This document shows positions 813-23,178 of a stretch of 24,873 nt of DNA, one piece after another; the first letter of the stretch is position 1, and each line of letters opens with the position of its first letter. The DNA is from a virus. The stretch covers positions 1 through 24,873 of IMG/VR virus record IMGVR_UViG_3300008448_000593; one strand, written 5' to 3'. The position numbers and the translations under genes were made by a program. The notes beneath the pieces were generated by a model. The model was not told the origin of the DNA. It was given only the letters and a program-made list of their open reading frames with translations, and did no database searches.

Positions 813-828
813 TGTAACATTTGTTACA
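813..828. promoter_or_regulatory. Predicted NtcA-binding palindrome
   Basis: TGTAACATTTGTTACA is a perfect 6-bp inverted repeat around four bases. It contains GTA (814-816), N8, TAC (825-827), flanked by T and A, which is the extended consensus for NtcA, the 2-oxoglutarate-responsive nitrogen regulator of cyanobacteria. The centre lies about 50 bases upstream of the predicted start of transcription near 871. That is roughly one helical turn further than the classic -41.5 position. The promoter also has a good -35 box, so class I-like activation or another mode is possible. The palindrome could form a weak hairpin, but no T-tract follows, so it is a poor terminator. Confidence 0.6.
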
Positions 829-835
829 AAATTAT

Positions 836-864
836 TTGACTAAATATCCGAGATGAGGTATAGT
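836..864 (+). promoter_or_regulatory. Sigma70-type promoter of the glutamine-riboswitch unit
   Basis: TTGACT (836-841) and TATAGT (859-864) are separated by exactly 17 bases. Each matches five of six consensus positions. The predicted start, near 871, coincides with the first base of the riboswitch. A late-type CTAAATA (840-846) overlaps the -35 element and might allow late transcription, though this short motif could occur by chance. Confidence 0.75.
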
Positions 865-870
865 ACCTCT

Positions 871-964
871 ACGTTCATCTGGTTATCCAGACGGAAGTAA
901 GCCGACGCGGAACGGATCGTTCATCCTATTAAGGACGCAAACGCCGACTGAAGGAACGCTCTTT
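871..964 (+). promoter_or_regulatory. Tandem glutamine riboswitch (glnA / downstream-peptide RNA type)
   Basis: Conserved blocks of the glutamine aptamers are visible: CGTTCATC (872-879), GACGGAAGTA (890-899) and GAAGGAACGC (950-959). The element is a tandem of two related modules. Module 1 (872-914) and module 2 (918-958) each run CGTTCATC, small hairpin, GACG or GACGC, GCCGAC, GGAACG. P2-like hairpins are CTGG/CCAG (879-882 with 887-890) and TCCT/AGGA (924-927 with 932-935). In each module CGTTC can close with GAACG. Module 1 keeps the canonical GACGGAAGTA, and module 2 keeps the canonical GAAGGAACGC end. CTCTTT (959-964) can pair with the Shine-Dalgarno AAGGAG (978-983) and is a candidate expression platform. 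The downstream-peptide class is known from cyanobacteria and their phages and binds L-glutamine; which module binds here is inference. Confidence 0.88.
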
Positions 965-991
965 AACCTAAACAACTAAGGAGAAAACCTA

Positions 992-1126
992 ATGTCACAA
1001 GTAGTTTATCGTGGTGTCCCTTACGACACCGAAGTGCGTAAGCAAGAGCAAGCGCAGCAACAACCTCAACAATACGATGCCCAATATCGTGGAGTAAAGT
1101 TTGTTAAGGAGGTTGAGAACAAATGA
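992..1126 (+). CDS. PirA-like / DUF4278 riboswitch-controlled peptide (44 aa)
   Basis: This short ORF encodes 44 residues with the signature YRGVPYD near the N-terminus (residues 6-12) and a second YRGVKF near residues 32-37, separated by a Gln-rich linker. The start is set by AAGGAG at 978-983, eight bases upstream of the ATG. The N-terminal YRG-x-x-Y-D pattern is that of DUF4278 small proteins found behind downstream-peptide RNAs. Cyanobacterial PirA belongs to this group; it binds the PII signalling protein and lowers PII activation of N-acetylglutamate kinase, the key step of arginine synthesis. The position directly behind a glutamine aptamer supports the assignment. PII binding by this phage version is inferred. 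Its stop overlaps the next ATG (ATGA at 1123-1126). Confidence 0.8.
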   Translation: MSQVVYRGVPYDTEVRKQEQAQQQPQQYDAQYRGVKFVKEVENK

Positions 1127-1218
1127 AAAATAATAACTGGCAACTTGTTCTGATCAAACAACAAAAAGAAAAAGAGCAACGTAAACACCAAGCAAAACTA
1201 GCAATGGCAATGCGCTGA
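1123..1218 (+). CDS. Small basic protein of the riboswitch operon (31 aa)
   Basis: The ATG overlaps the stop of the PirA-like gene (ATGA) and is preceded ten bases upstream by a perfect Shine-Dalgarno AAGGAGG (1106-1112), which lies inside the 3' end of the upstream gene. The product is 31 residues, rich in Lys and Gln, and probably one amphipathic helix (a hydrophobic QLVLI start followed by a Lys/Gln/Glu-rich stretch). It ends just before the intrinsic terminator, so it is the last gene of the unit and would share nitrogen control. I know no family for it. The strong ribosome-binding site and translational coupling are the main reasons to regard it as real. Confidence 0.6.
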   Translation: MKNNNWQLVLIKQQKEKEQRKHQAKLAMAMR

Positions 1219-1224
1219 TATTTG

Positions 1225-1251
1225 GAGGGGACTTGATCCCCTCTTTTTTTT
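1225..1251 (+). terminator. Rho-independent terminator of the riboswitch operon
   Basis: GAGGGGA (1225-1231) pairs perfectly with TCCCCTC (1237-1243) across a five-base loop and is followed by eight T residues (1244-1251). It closes the 836-1251 unit seven bases after the stop of the 31-codon gene. Confidence 0.92.
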
Positions 1252-18669: not shown

Positions 18670-21600
18670 ATGGCAGATATTTTAGTTACAGGTCAAGAAG
18701 CATATTTTAATGAAGACGCTAAATTCTTTAAAGATGTTTATGTGTATGGTAATTTATATGCTTTAGGTCAAGGCGGGGTTGGTGGAGTTGGGGGTGGAAA
18801 TTTTAGTGGATCTGTAGTAATACCTGAAAATCTTTTTGTCGGAGGAATTTCTACATTTGTTGGAAAGGCTAATTTTCTATCTGATGTTAATATTGAAAAT
18901 TTACAAGTTGGTATATTAACAGTAACTAAAAAATTTGATGTTGGAGTTGGTGGGACAGTATTAACTGCATCTATTGCTACTGGAAACATTGGAATTGGAA
19001 CTTCTATTCCCAGAGAAAAAGTTGATATTATTGGAACAACATTAATTAGTGATAAATTAGGGATTGGCAATAATTCACCACAACAAGCTCTTGATGTTAC
19101 TGGAACAGCATTAATTAGTAGCAGATTAGGAATTGGTAATAATTCACCACAAGAATCTCTTGATGTTAGTGGATCGGCATTAATTAGCAGTAGATTGGGA
19201 ATTGGCAATAATTCACCACAACAAGCTCTTGATGTTACTGGAATAGCATTAATTAGTAGCAGATTAGGAATTGGTAATAATTCACCCCAATATCCTCTTG
19301 ATGTCACTGGTGATGCAAGAATTTCAAGTCAATTATATGATTCAACAAATAGTTCTGGAGTCATTGGAGCATTTTTAACAAAAGATGCTCAAGGAATTAA
19401 ATGGACTCCATTTGAACCTTCTTTTGTTGAGGGTATTTTTGTTTATAATGAGGATGTTTTAGTTAGTGTTTCATCTTTTAGAGGTTTAAACTTAAAAAAA
19501 GGGAGAGGGTCTGGAATTACTACAGATCCAATTCAAGGATTTGTAAATCCAACTAGTCCATCAATTGCTGATGTTTATGTCTATGATTATTGGGATAATG
19601 TTGAAGGAACTACTACTATTTACAGAAATTCTTATGTTGGAATCGGAGGTTCAACTCCAAAATTTGATTTAGATGTTTTTGGATCTGTAGGTATATCTTC
19701 ACTTTTAATCGTTGGTGGTGCTACTTCTCTTTCTAGCACTTTAGATGTAACTGGTATCACTACATTAAGAAGTCAATTGATTGTTAAAGGTCCTACAAAT
19801 CTTGAGAAGACCTTAGATGTAACTGGTATCACTACATTGAGAAGTCAATTGATTGTTAAAGGTCCTACAAATCTTGAACAAACTTTAGATGTAACTGGTA
19901 TCACTACATTAAGAAGTCAATTGATTGTTAAAGGTCCTACAAATCTTGAGAAGACTTTAGATGTAACTGGAATTACGACTTTAAGAGACCAATTAATCGT
20001 TGGTGGCGCTACAAGTCTTGCTAGTACTTTAGATGTAACTGGAATTACGACTTTAAGAGACCAATTAATCGTTGGTGGCGCTACAAGTCTTGCTAGTACT
20101 TTAGATGTAACTGGAATTACAAATCTAAAGGATCAATTGATCGTTGGTGGTGCTACTTCTCTTTCTAGTACTTTAGATGTAACTGGAATTACGACTTTAA
20201 GAGACCAATTAATCGTTGGTGGTGCTACTTCTCTTGCTAGTACTTTAGATGTAACTGGAATTACGAATCTAAAGGATCAATTAATCGTTGGTGGTGCTAC
20301 AAGTCTTGCTAGTACTTTAGATGTAACTGGTATCACTACATTAAGAAATCAATTAATCGTTAAAGGTCCTACAATTCTTGAACAAACTTTAGATGTAACT
20401 GGAATTACGACTTTAAGAGACCAATTAATCGTTAAAGGTCCTACAATTCTTGAACAAACTTTAGATGTAACTGGAATTACGACTTTAAGAGACCAATTAA
20501 TCGTTGGTGGCGCTACAAGTCTTGCTAGTACTTTAGATGTAACTGGAATTACAAATCTAAAGGATCAATTAATCGTTGGTGGTGCTACAAGTCTTGCTAG
20601 TACTTTAGATGTAACTGGAATTACAACTCTAAGGAATCAATTGATTGTTAAAGGTACTACAAATCTTGAACAAACTTTAGACGTAATTGGTATCACTAAT
20701 CTAAAGGATCAATTGATCGTTGGTGGTGCTACTTCTCTTGCTAGTACTTTAGATGTAACTGGTATTACTACATTAAGAAACCAATTAATCGTTGATGGAG
20801 CGACATCTTTAAATTCAACTCTTCAAGTTGGAGTTGGGGGAACAGTTATTACAACTACTGGAATTGGTTCTGTTGGTATAGGAACCTATAATCCAGAATT
20901 TGATATTGATTTGGCAAATAGTGTCAAATTCAGAAAAGCGATAATTGATAAAAATAATAAGGTTGGATATGATACTAATTTCTATCAAACTCCAAGATCA
21001 GTACTAACACAAGTTGGCATAGATACTGCCGGAGAAATCATTGGAGGTAGATTTTTTGATGCTGCAAATATGATTCGTTTGAATCTTGATTATATTGCAT
21101 CAGAGGCAGTTGGATATATTACAAGTACGGACTATAAAAATCCAGCATTTACATTAAATTCTGGAGATTATACTTCTTGTAAAGATGATATTAAAGATAT
21201 TCTAAAAGCAATTACGATTGACATTACAAAAGGTGGAAATGTTCAGTCCGTAGGTGCTGGTCGTGCATATCATGATGGAAATACTTTATTTTCTATTGGA
21301 ATTACTACTACAATTGCTACAATTGGTGCCGCTGCAACTGTTACAAAATATGTAATTAATAATGTCTCACCACCAAAATCATATCAAAGTGGTGTGGGTA
21401 GTATTCGTCAGGTAAGAGATTTAACTTTACAAGAAGATAATGGAAGTAATACAAATTCAACTGGATGTTCAAATGTAGTATCTGCAATTTATACATGTGC
21501 TGGTATTGTAACCACAATTATTGGAAATGGTCCAAATGCAGTACCGATTAATAATCCTGATGGAAAGGTAATTTGGGCACCAGCAGGAGCAGACTCTAGA

Positions 21601-23178
21601 AATCTAATTTGGGTTTCTAAGTATGGTAATGATGATAATGGTGGAAAGACTGAGGGTGATGCAAAACTCACAATTGGTGCTGCTTGTGAGATTGCTGAAC
21701 CAGGTGATACTGTTATGGTTCGTTCTGGTGTGTATTATGAAAATAATCCAATTGGATTAAGAACAGATGTATCTGTAAGTGGACAAGATTTAAGACTTGT
21801 TACTGTTGTCCCTAAAAATTTGGGTAAAGATGTTTTCCATGTAAGAAGAGGATGTCTGATTGAAAATATGAACTTTGCATGTGAAACTGGAGAATCGAAT
21901 ATTGGAGGAGGAGCACTAGCATTCCCACCAACAACTATTGATATTTTGGCAGGAAAATCTTATGGTGCAGTAACTGGATATACTGCACCTGGACCTGCAA
22001 ATGAAGGACCAAGTGGAAGATGGAGATCTCCATATGTAAGAAACTGTACTAACTTTATGCCGTTTAGTATTGGTATGAAAATTGATGGAGATCATTCAGT
22101 TTCTTCTACAATTGGTGCAGATCTTAAATGTATGGTGTGCGATTCGTTCACACAATACAATGAAGCAGGTATTGGTGTTTCAATTACCAATAATGGATAC
22201 GCACAGTTAGTCTCTATTTTCACAATTAACTGTGATAAGGCAATCTATGTTGATACTGGTGGACAATGTGATCTTACAAACTCCAACTCATCTTTTGGTA
22301 ATTATGGTCTTTATGCGGTTGGTTTAGGTAGAACAGAATTTACTGCAAAAGTAAATACATCTACATCTGCAGAAGAAGATACAATCGTCTTTAAAGAGGT
22401 AACTGACGGAACTCAAGTAAGAAGACCTTATGATGGGCAGGCATTATGGTTTAAGATTAATCTTGCAAATTATAATACTGGTCAGACTGGAATTATTACT
22501 GCACCACTACAACAATTAAATAAAATTAATATAATTAATACTATTCCTGGATATAGTCCAAGTGCTCCACCAGATGTTACCATTTATGATTATAATACCA
22601 ATAGTGAAAATCCATTAGGCCCAGAGGGCATTATTGCAGAATTGTCTCCAACAATTAGTGACGCTGGAGAACTTATTGCCGTTGATGTTATTGGTAGTGG
22701 AAGAAATTATCTCCCTTCTCAAGATATGAGAGTTAGAATTAATGGAGTTCCTACAAATAATTTGGTTGCGGTAATGGAACCAATTTATTATACTGTTTCT
22801 GAGGCGACACCTCCAACTAATTCTGGTATCACAACTGTTACTCTAAATGAATTTGTTCCATATCTTGTTTATGCTGAAGATGCAATTGATATGAGAAGAA
22901 TTAGTCGCATTTTGACAAGTTCTCACTCTTTCGAATATATCGGTACTGGCACAGATATAAATACTTCAACTCCTTTGAAGGGTGCTGTGCCCATCAAAGA
23001 GAACGAAATTGTTGCTCTTGATGGCGCTCAAATACCTTACACAAGTACTGACCAAAAAGGTAATTTTAATATTGGTGAAGGTATTCAAGTAGATCAAACA
23101 ACCGCAACAATTCGTGGAAGAGACTTTAGTAAAGCAATTCAAGCACAAGTAACACCTTTAATTCTTGCATTGAGATAA
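18670..23178 (+). CDS. Large fibre/baseplate-associated protein with LDVTG repeats and beta-helix domain (1502 aa)
   Basis: The N-terminal 110 residues have a Gly-rich segment and I-G-I-G turns. Four 23-residue I-G-N-N-S-P-Q/L-D-V-T-G repeats follow (bases 19057-19332). After a unique spacer come fifteen 24-residue T-L-D-V-T-G-I-T repeats (bases 19738-20817). From about residue 970, W-V-S-K-Y-G-N-D-D-N-G-G, A-E-P-G-D-T-V and G-V-Y-Y-E-N-N-P-I-G begin a right-handed beta-helix (pectin-lyase-like) domain to about 1250. The C-terminus has D-Q-K-G-N-F-N-I-G-E-G, common in cyanophage structural proteins. Such repeats form elongated trimeric fibres, and the beta-helix may bind or cut surface glycans. 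Receptor binding is inferred from architecture and position. No S74 chaperone domain is seen. Confidence 0.8.
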   Translation: MADILVTGQEAYFNEDAKFFKDVYVYGNLYALGQGGVGGVGGGNFSGSVVIPENLFVGGISTFVGKANFLSDVNIENLQVGILTVTKKFDVGVGGTVLTASIATGNIGIGTSIPREKVDIIGTTLISDKLGIGNNSPQQALDVTGTALISSRLGIGNNSPQESLDVSGSALISSRLGIGNNSPQQALDVTGIALISSRLGIGNNSPQYPLDVTGDARISSQLYDSTNSSGVIGAFLTKDAQGIKWTPFEPSFVEGIFVYNEDVLVSVSSFRGLNLKKGRGSGITTDPIQGFVNPTSPSIADVYVYDYWDNVEGTTTIYRNSYVGIGGSTPKFDLDVFGSVGISSLLIVGGATSLSSTLDVTGITTLRSQLIVKGPTNLEKTLDVTGITTLRSQLIVKGPTNLEQTLDVTGITTLRSQLIVKGPTNLEKTLDVTGITTLRDQLIVGGATSLASTLDVTGITTLRDQLIVGGATSLASTLDVTGITNLKDQLIVGGATSLSSTLDVTGITTLRDQLIVGGATSLASTLDVTGITNLKDQLIVGGATSLASTLDVTGITTLRNQLIVKGPTILEQTLDVTGITTLRDQLIVKGPTILEQTLDVTGITTLRDQLIVGGATSLASTLDVTGITNLKDQLIVGGATSLASTLDVTGITTLRNQLIVKGTTNLEQTLDVIGITNLKDQLIVGGATSLASTLDVTGITTLRNQLIVDGATSLNSTLQVGVGGTVITTTGIGSVGIGTYNPEFDIDLANSVKFRKAIIDKNNKVGYDTNFYQTPRSVLTQVGIDTAGEIIGGRFFDAANMIRLNLDYIASEAVGYITSTDYKNPAFTLNSGDYTSCKDDIKDILKAITIDITKGGNVQSVGAGRAYHDGNTLFSIGITTTIATIGAAATVTKYVINNVSPPKSYQSGVGSIRQVRDLTLQEDNGSNTNSTGCSNVVSAIYTCAGIVTTIIGNGPNAVPINNPDGKVIWAPAGADSRNLIWVSKYGNDDNGGKTEGDAKLTIGAACEIAEPGDTVMVRSGVYYENNPIGLRTDVSVSGQDLRLVTVVPKNLGKDVFHVRRGCLIENMNFACETGESNIGGGALAFPPTTIDILAGKSYGAVTGYTAPGPANEGPSGRWRSPYVRNCTNFMPFSIGMKIDGDHSVSSTIGADLKCMVCDSFTQYNEAGIGVSITNNGYAQLVSIFTINCDKAIYVDTGGQCDLTNSNSSFGNYGLYAVGLGRTEFTAKVNTSTSAEEDTIVFKEVTDGTQVRRPYDGQALWFKINLANYNTGQTGIITAPLQQLNKINIINTIPGYSPSAPPDVTIYDYNTNSENPLGPEGIIAELSPTISDAGELIAVDVIGSGRNYLPSQDMRVRINGVPTNNLVAVMEPIYYTVSEATPPTNSGITTVTLNEFVPYLVYAEDAIDMRRISRILTSSHSFEYIGTGTDINTSTPLKGAVPIKENEIVALDGAQIPYTSTDQKGNFNIGEGIQVDQTTATIRGRDFSKAIQAQVTPLILALR
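19057..19332 (+). repeat. Four 69-base coding repeats (23 aa each)
   Basis: Four units of L-G-I-G-N-N-S-P-Q-x-x-L-D-V-x-G-x-A-x-I-S-S-x lie head to tail, each 69 bases. A diverged fifth unit precedes them (I-G-I-G-T-S-I-P-R-E-K-V-D-I-I-G). The reading frame is kept throughout. Confidence 0.9.
19738..20817 (+). repeat. Fifteen 72-base coding repeats (24 aa each)
   Basis: Fifteen exact-length units begin T-L-D-V-T-G-I-T. Two sub-types alternate: those ending G-G-A-T-S-L-A-S and those ending K-G-P-T-N-L-E-Q or a close variant. Several adjacent units are almost identical at the DNA level, pointing to recent duplication or gene conversion. Confidence 0.95.

Follow-up and report, generated by a model that had tools for sequence, protein, structure and literature searches.

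We analysed a 24,873-nucleotide (24.9 kb) stretch of a virus record (IMGVR_UViG_3300008448_000593), referred to below as the window, and found that positions 813 to 1251 hold a compact unit made of an NtcA-type box, a promoter-like sequence, a leader RNA with glutamine-aptamer modules, two small genes and a terminator-like stem. Judged from its sequence and from that of its relatives, the leader RNA is very probably a strand-swapped double glutamine-I aptamer, in which each ligand pocket joins the 5′ half of one module to the 3′ half of the other. The unusual part of the unit is this RNA architecture. As a whole, the unit is likely to direct expression under nitrogen plenty in a T4-like cyanophage. 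All the elements that a preliminary description of this DNA had named were found where it had placed them. Window coordinates refer to the plus strand, save for the box, which carries no strand.

Relatives of the leader RNA and composition of its modules

Parts of the unit were found by blastn in 48 phage records, and two pattern scans of IMG/VR returned 31 and at least 119 stretches. Both scans and two named phages, duplicates included and two copies of the window removed, comprise 113 double-aptamer matches in other phage sequences; among these matches listed, 102 composites are of the window's kind, and canonical doubles make up the remaining 11. These 11 include L059, which the pattern at first read as composite and which is excluded from the composite counts. 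L146 (and, in some counts, the window) was dropped, these being copies of one sequence, and 78 RNAs were left after duplicate removal. Figures from this set and from the sets of 80, 87, 98, 115 and 176 used below hold among the matches listed; the search patterns fixed part of the conserved bases, and exact patterns overlook divergent forms. In other phage contigs canonical double glutamine aptamers precede other small open reading frames (ORFs) (L005, L027, L044, L061, L071, L083, L094, L097, L103 and L134).

The glutamine-I family (RF01739) matches positions 916-962 with 37.9 bits, over its cut-off of 35, and module 1 alone (872-914) scores 27.3 bits to the same family, below that cut-off. 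The glutamine-II family (RF01704; cut-off 33) is not reached in the window, where the 5′ half of module 2 scores 20.0 bits; the relative in P-RSM6 reaches 33.1. Of 14 named loci, 4 give an Rfam match to a glutamine aptamer at cut-off. RNAs of the window's kind have the 5′ core GACGGAAGUA in module 1, where GAAGG is missing before the GGAACG, and module 2 mostly has GACGCAAA instead of GGAAGUA while retaining GAAGGAACG. In neither module does P1 close a three-way junction with a local P2 and P3, as the P3 strands pair across modules; the three-way junction of glutamine-I is obtained only if one pocket, here called A, is assembled from both modules. Two glutamine-aptamer modules had been described at this site. 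The assignment to a glutamine-riboswitch unit stands, while the cross-module pairs indicate one strand-swapped structure and not two independent aptamers.

In the proposed fold, pocket A would consist of the 5′ half of module 1 (its P1 strand, hairpin P2a and GGAAGUA) and the 3′ half of module 2 (GAAGGAACG), and pocket B of the 5′ half of module 2 and the 3′ half of module 1, with both pockets seated on one shared helix, P3*. The outer P1 would pair 872-876 of module 1 with 954-958 of module 2, a strand that Rfam's own alignment pairs within module 2. An inner P1′ would join 910-914 (module 1) to 918-922 (module 2). Hairpin P2a, which shows covariation, lies at 878-891, and P2b at 924-935.

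A helix shared between the modules

The stretch that follows GUA in module 1 (AGCCGACX, 900-907) is complementary to the stretch that precedes GAAGG in module 2 (YGCCGACU, 942-949), and this cross-module pairing constitutes P3*. Among the 75 RNAs of regular length, its terminal pair X:Y is G-C in 42, U-A in 32 and A-U in 1, with no exceptions. Irregular RNAs also keep the helix: in L002 both strands differ in sequence yet pair, save for a terminal U.C; L050 has the identical three-base deletion on both strands; and L117 forms P3* with a bulge. Double-sided changes occupied 39 cells of alignment A1; shuffling gave 14.6, and sliding the strands gave no more than 4. A tree built from the downstream flanking DNA places 19 changes in X and 19 in Y, and all 8 well-supported independent pairs were concordant. 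A short P3*, AGUCG/CGACU, is present in 63 of the 114 readable RNAs that carry an embedded gene (see below).

Cap pairs point to a strand-swapped topology

In the glutamine pocket the contacts are C1:G59, G2:C58 and G22 (PMC6698751). In glutamine-II, C19 (after G18) pairs with G41, which follows the second P1-equivalent strand, and P1 of glutamine-I ends in an equivalent long-range pair (PMC6698751); in the glutamine-I construct sequence that we used (PMC5393176), position suggests G23:C60 as this cap pair. We called N the base after ACG in the 5′ half of a module and M the base after GAACG in its 3′ half. In the window, N1, the capping or 'linchpin' base of pocket A, is base 894 and its proposed partner M2 is base 959; N2 is base 938 and M1 base 915.

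As a control, 108 unique canonical doubles pair N with M within each module (106 and 108 G-C). In composites of the window's kind the pairing instead runs across modules: N1:M2 is G-C in 91 and C-G in 85 of the 176 pooled RNAs, without exception. Where the pattern left both bases free (98 RNAs), the pair is G-C in 14 and C-G in 84; N1 and M2 there changed 5 times each on the tree, and 4 of 4 supported pairs were concordant. Left out of this count were 17 of the 115 embedded-gene rows, which had no ACG before N1 or no readable M2. In fifteen of them CG still precedes N1 and M2 can be read, giving 14 C-G and 1 G-C; of the others, M2 is not readable in L346, and L390 has TG for CG before N1, but its bases are also C and G. 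Among named phages, 13 of 24 loci were readable by pattern and the cap pair was present in 13 of 13. The inner cap N2:M1 pairs in 71 of 78 RNAs (67 C-G, 4 G-C). By these counts, each pocket appears to combine the 5′ half of a module with the 3′ half of its neighbour, and the contact bases C1:G59, G2:C58 and G22 are present for both pockets across the modules. Given the 78 sequences and no structure input, RNAalifold returned both the outer P1 and the inner P1′, and the energy of the swapped structure was below that of the tandem structure in 78 of 78.

Several observations weigh against this fold. Two positions of P3* hold C.A in 74 of 75 and A.C in 73 of 75 RNAs, each being a standard pair in 3 of 78 on the alignment. 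P1 showed no covariation: its strands do not vary among these RNAs, which is partly an effect of search patterns that held them constant. That G23:C60 are the cap bases of glutamine-I is suggested by position, and N1 was pattern-fixed in the 78, so that two-sided evidence for the outer cap comes from the 98, the left-out rows and the named phages. The inner cap is missing in 7 of 78. RNAalifold misses P3* and instead pairs the 5′ core locally (columns 33-35 with 43-45). The free minimum-energy fold is usually lower still, and was unlike the swapped fold in 8 of 9 examples; with the Shine-Dalgarno (SD) region included, the energy model gave the inner P1′ a probability of 0.72, the outer P1 0.04 and P3* 0.00. 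With values this low for the outer P1 and P3*, formation of the complete swapped structure would call for glutamine or for tertiary contacts.

Alternative folds

A plain tandem, with modules side by side and each folding locally, would account for the two adjacent Rfam matches, and canonical tandems do exist (136 of 142 matches in GTDB contigs and 11 of 113 phage matches, among the matches listed). Such a tandem would, however, lack GAAGG in module 1 and GGAAGUA in module 2 and would place G opposite G at one in-module cap in 66 of 78 RNAs and C opposite C at the other in 73 of 78; its P3 strands pair across modules, and its local helices P1a and P1b have predicted probabilities of 0.06 and 0.00; we consider it very improbable. 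We see hardly more chance for a fold that leaves the P1 helices unswapped and lets the two modules touch through P3* as a kissing (pseudoknot) interaction. The 20 bits of the module 2 5′ half to glutamine-II, itself a pseudoknot (PMC6698751), would fit such a glutamine-II-like topology, but the cross-module caps N1:M2 and N2:M1 require swapped P1 helices, and at least three bases always separate the P1′ half-sites (in the unique RNAs listed), as a hairpin loop needs. Both topologies were rejected, since the counts of capping bases contradict them.

A further alternative keeps the strand-swapped fold and has glutamine bound by pocket A alone, with the inner half as a structural remnant that caps P3. 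Pocket B is without the E-loop sequences (GAAGUA/GAAGG) and loses its cap pair in the 7 RNAs mentioned above, which argues for this reading. Against it, the inner cap is kept in 71 of 78, the 4 G-C pairs replacing C-G (they share one common linker, and may be one event), and the contact bases of pocket B are conserved, in part because the pattern fixed them. We give binding by pocket A alone somewhat less than even weight.

A gene embedded in the switch

In the window P2b is short and holds no inner gene. In many relatives this hairpin contains a whole gene: an ORF lies inside the P2b arm in S-SSM7 (L320, 466-700), P-SSM7, S-SM2, S-T4, P-RSM6, DSL-LC02, S-SRM01 and L019, with further loci from L330 onward. 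A pattern scan that allowed an insert returned at least 120 stretches, 115 of them unique. In 114 of these 115 contigs, an ATG at most 8 bases past CGTTCA opens a frame of 49-58 codons, which stops at the UGA (77) or UAA (36) of GAC-UGA-AGGAACG; one contig ends before the stop. The position of this stop means that the last codons of the embedded gene are also P3* and the aptamer core. P2b pairs across the gene, with position 3 being C-G in 82, U-A in 25 and U-G in 7 (114 of 114), and positions 4 and 5 pairing in 113 and 111 of 114; the P1 5′ strand was not located by script in 27 of the 115. Of five embedded proteins scanned, three give strong matches to PHROG 504 and the other two weak ones (E 0.02 and 0.09), and a Pfam search with four embedded-gene proteins gave one match, far under cut-off.

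With a start codon in or beside the P2b arm, and last codons and stop that form P3* and the E-loop, translation of the inner gene and the ligand-bound switch would be mutually exclusive. We tentatively suggest that both heads bind glutamine and cooperate via P3*, and that in many lineages the embedded PHROG 504 gene makes this a metabolite-gated choice between two phage genes.

In another contig, L450 (1516-1746, minus strand), an ORF of 76 amino acids (PHROG 6471) enters module 1 and stops at the AAG-UAA of the core, and its P2a arm may hold a gene likewise.

Proposed switching of translation

Directly after the outer P1, an anti-SD sequence (CUCUUUA, 959-965), whose first base is M2, is complementary to the SD sequence UAAGGAG (977-983). 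Of the 78 RNAs, 72 contain both, and the stem that they form has a predicted mean pair probability of 0.97. ON behaviour has been reported for both types of glutamine riboswitch (PMC6316151). Here, glutamine would stabilise pocket A, and base 959 would leave the anti-SD stem for its cap pair with base 894; the SD would be freed and translation of the downstream peptides turned on. The cap pair 894:959 costs the anti-SD stem its closing pair, which is consistent with an ON switch, and we think it fairly likely that the predicted switch works in this direction.

Promoter and NtcA-type box

The perfect palindrome TGTAAC-N4-GTTACA at 813-828, previously noted as NtcA-type, is indeed present; it matches once in the window and never in 100 shuffles. 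Within it, the box GTA-N8-TAC (814-827) is kept in 73 of 80 unique upstreams of the set without an embedded gene (window included), where loss of conservation in relatives would have counted against the box. It falls in two narrow ranges, 56-70 nucleotides before the RNA in 55 upstreams (class A) and 37-43 nucleotides in 18 (class B), and is elsewhere or absent in 7. When the same set was anchored on the −35 element and the box left unused, a box lay within 34 nucleotides in 50 of 54. TTG-N3-N16..18-TAnnnT was found in 57 of the 80 upstreams, and TAnnTA exactly 13 nucleotides past the box in 48 of 55 class A and 16 of 18 class B upstreams. In the embedded-gene set the box is less general, a point against the present reading: 83 of the 115 upstreams were kept (the others had no P1 start found or too short a flank), and only 45 of the 83 have the strict box, or 39 of 73 when anchored on −35.

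Over the whole window GTA-N8-TAC occurs 20 times compared with 3.6 expected. We dropped this excess as evidence, as 10 of the 20 matches are one repeated motif in a large ORF: GTAACTGG(A/T)ATTAC, which mimics the NtcA consensus, recurs 10 times at 19963-20768 in steps of 72 or 144 bases within a repeat-rich ORF (18670-23178).

Downstream of the box lies a sigma70-like promoter (TTGACT-17-TATAGT, 836-864) with a predicted early start at ~871. Its −35 is overlapped by CTAAATA (840-846), a possible T4-type late promoter element with a predicted late start at ~852. In S-PM2 the late motif is NATAAATA, and early and late promoters overlap on middle genes (review, PMC2984593). As an enriched motif CTAAATA was rejected, since the window holds 6 copies and 6.9 are expected. 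The overlap of CTAAATA with the −35 suggests that one NtcA-type box could serve two starts; its centre (820.5) is at ~−31.5 to the predicted late start and ~−50.5 to the predicted early one. In the Synechocystis pirA promoter NtcA sites at −33.5 and −48.5 are read as repressive, and activating sites lie near −41.5 (PMC8092223). This resemblance to pirA makes repression in nitrogen starvation the better guess, and by this analogy we lean slightly towards NtcA repressing at the predicted box. Activation by NtcA at the palindrome, or use of the palindrome by another regulator, appears rather unlikely to us; NtcA sites have been proposed as promoters of cyanophage genes (PMC3037559) and many embedded-gene relatives are without the strict box, yet activated NtcA promoters carry their site near −41.5 (PMC8092223) and not at the two distances predicted here.

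Around the −10 there is a dyad (GAGGTA-TAG-TACCTC, 855-869). Of 37 unique class A leaders, 35 have a stem of at least 5 pairs at this place (11.3 on average and at most 18 in shuffles), with sequence that varies and G-U pairs allowed (L001-L145). Class B leaders have no such stem above shuffles (7 of 18, mean 7.7), and a control segment at −110 to −88 was also somewhat over shuffles (18 of 52, mean 11.1, largest 18). The dyad may be a 5′ hairpin of the late transcript, an insulator or a DNA operator.

Downstream proteins

The first gene after the switch (992-1126) encodes a 44-amino-acid peptide with a YRGVPYD motif, which belongs to PHROG 5049 and scores 22.6 bits (E 1.4e-4) to DUF4278 (PF14105), below the gathering threshold of 25.3. 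In a profile comparison, 12 phage YRG proteins and 7 host DUF4278 proteins aligned over 39 columns with both YRG motifs in register (hhalign probability 93.4, E 2.6e-7). The likeness to DUF4278 that the preliminary description had seen is thus upheld, and the kinship with PirA that it had added is unsupported: the texts consulted tie DUF4278 to the N-terminal part of the glutamine-synthetase inhibitor IF17 (PMC6316151), and the accessible text of the PirA paper does not mention DUF4278. We dropped the PirA identity for want of any DUF4278-PirA link in the texts consulted, a separation made by descriptions and not by sequence. A PirA-like PII binder that lowers arginine synthesis would fit the similar positions of the NtcA sites at pirA (PMC8092223) and the small size of the proteins, but, with DUF4278 linked to IF17, this function is improbable.

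The second gene (1123-1218), the coupled 31-codon ORF of the preliminary description, is likewise confirmed; it encodes a basic helix-like peptide of 31 amino acids, and its start overlaps the preceding stop by 4 bases. Across 87 downstream regions the first protein has YRG in 78 and is without it in 5, and was cut off in 2 and not readable in 2. The YRG gene is often followed in overlap by a basic helix-like peptide, and the two parts also occur fused, as YRG-helix in, for example, S-CREM1 and L117 and as helix-YRG in many members of the embedded-gene set; PHROG 545 matches the YRG and the helix part alike. In L002, L012, L063, L066 and L091 the first gene encodes a helix protein without YRG. 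That the helix peptide is the C-terminus of IF7/IF17 had suggested itself by eye and was rejected: comparison with the C-termini of host IF17-like proteins detected no homology (probability 0.2, with 0.7 for a control alignment), a result that counts against an IF17-type function. A PDB search with a fused YRG-helix protein gave no match.

The genes are followed by an intrinsic-terminator-like stem (1224-1244) and a T run (to 1251). The promoter and terminator that had been described are both present in the window, but single sites of these kinds are not above chance (7 promoter-like sites found and 6.1 expected; 2 terminator-like stems found and 2.7 expected). The aptamer is above chance, and the whole unit recurs in many phages.

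Occurrence in hosts and neighbouring genes

The double-aptamer pattern matched in 1 of 386 genomes of the phylum (non-photosynthetic members included), the match being a single aptamer with a long P3, and in none of 400 genomes of the family of the glutamine-II-carrying genome (presumably picocyanobacteria, and the likely host family); this narrow pattern misses forms with N1 = C and with an embedded gene. A wider module 1 pattern gave one match in the same 400 genomes, L450, which is of the window's kind. As the genes around L450 match phage families, one of them the family of the window ORF at 1283, the assembly most likely contains phage DNA at this place. Among the 142 matches listed from GTDB contigs, the 6 that are not canonical are two copies of the window, one case with a long P3 and three chance-like matches.

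Of 27 listed host DUF4278 proteins, 11 have a glutamine-aptamer-like leader by a loose pattern, and a twelfth flagged row is not DUF4278. A YRG profile search of 194 host genomes, made without a positive control, gave no matches and so carries no weight either way. In a cyanobacterium (L272, G001:C280:256-313), a glutamine-I-like aptamer with a long P3 lies directly upstream of a 94-amino-acid DUF4278 protein with a basic C-terminus.

Genes for ThyX and PhoH are close to the unit in the window, which also has T4-type tail and baseplate genes by reading of its ORFs. A thymidylate synthase gene follows the unit at a distance of a few ORFs in five sequences: the window, L034 (P-TIM68), L032 (S-SRM01), L311 (Bellamy) and L317 (P-SSM2). 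In P-RSM6 (L321) a manA RNA motif (729-914, 188 bits) lies between the glutamine switch and a transaldolase gene.

Model of the unit and comparison with known systems

We infer ligand binding, NtcA binding and protein function, and combine them as follows. In nitrogen starvation NtcA with 2-oxoglutarate would repress the promoter by steric hindrance, and in nitrogen plenty glutamine would open the SD, so that the two inputs would form an AND gate. The proposal that the phage reads both sides of the host's carbon/nitrogen balance is thereby sharpened, as a repressive box position would mean that both signals favour making the peptide when nitrogen is plentiful. The proteins may then work as a pared-down or divided IF17-type factor that targets host nitrogen assimilation, either glutamine synthetase or its regulation; this is the least certain step, and a doubtful one. 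The model offers a testable view in which a phage may sense host nitrogen through both 2-oxoglutarate and glutamine, and points to PHROG 5049/545 and PHROG 504 as outputs of the switch. It would also place a gene in a riboswitch arm, with the aptamer core doubling as that gene's last codons.

Glutamine riboswitches in cyanophages (PMC9964418, PMC9602691) and in a marine methylophage (PMC9004378), and tandem glnA RNAs (PMC2864571), have been published. The paper on S-CREM1 gives a glnA element of 99 nucleotides and 44.0 bits; this element spans the whole composite, where Rfam 15 at cut-off gives none. Our search, which most subscription papers lay outside, turned up no publication on a double glutamine aptamer with swapped strands or on a gene within the arm of one.

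With the Synechocystis pirA promoter the unit shares NtcA-type boxes at ~−33 and ~−48 (PMC8092223), but in pirA two boxes go with a single start, whereas in the phage a single box goes with two predicted starts. The gifB/IF17 unit of Synechocystis shares NtcA repression (proposed here), a glutamine riboswitch and a DUF4278 protein (PMC6316151); IF17, however, carries an IF7-like part at its C-terminus, whereas in phages the two parts are separate proteins or fusions of either order, and the helix part shows no detectable homology.

Among RNAs, the canonical glnA doubles that occur in bacteria and in some phages also have two successive modules, but there each module is complete and has in-module cap pairs. 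Glutamine-I (glnA RNA) shares CGUUCA, P2, the GACGGAAGUA and GAAGGAACG cores and a capping G-C pair, and hosts carry glutamine-I before DUF4278 genes; the phage RNA differs in that its pocket halves come from different modules, that it has one shared P3 and that one pocket is without an E-loop. Glutamine-II (Downstream-peptide) shares a C-G cap (N2:M1 here, N1:M2 in many relatives), the CGUUCAYCC-hairpin-GGRCGCA half and small DUF4278 proteins downstream, but is a single pseudoknotted aptamer, while the phage fold needs no pseudoknot. Glutamine-II was crystallised as a domain-swapped dimer that is presumed absent in vivo (review, PMC7357161); if our reading is correct, the phage RNA would be a natural intramolecular counterpart of that dimer, kept across many phages.

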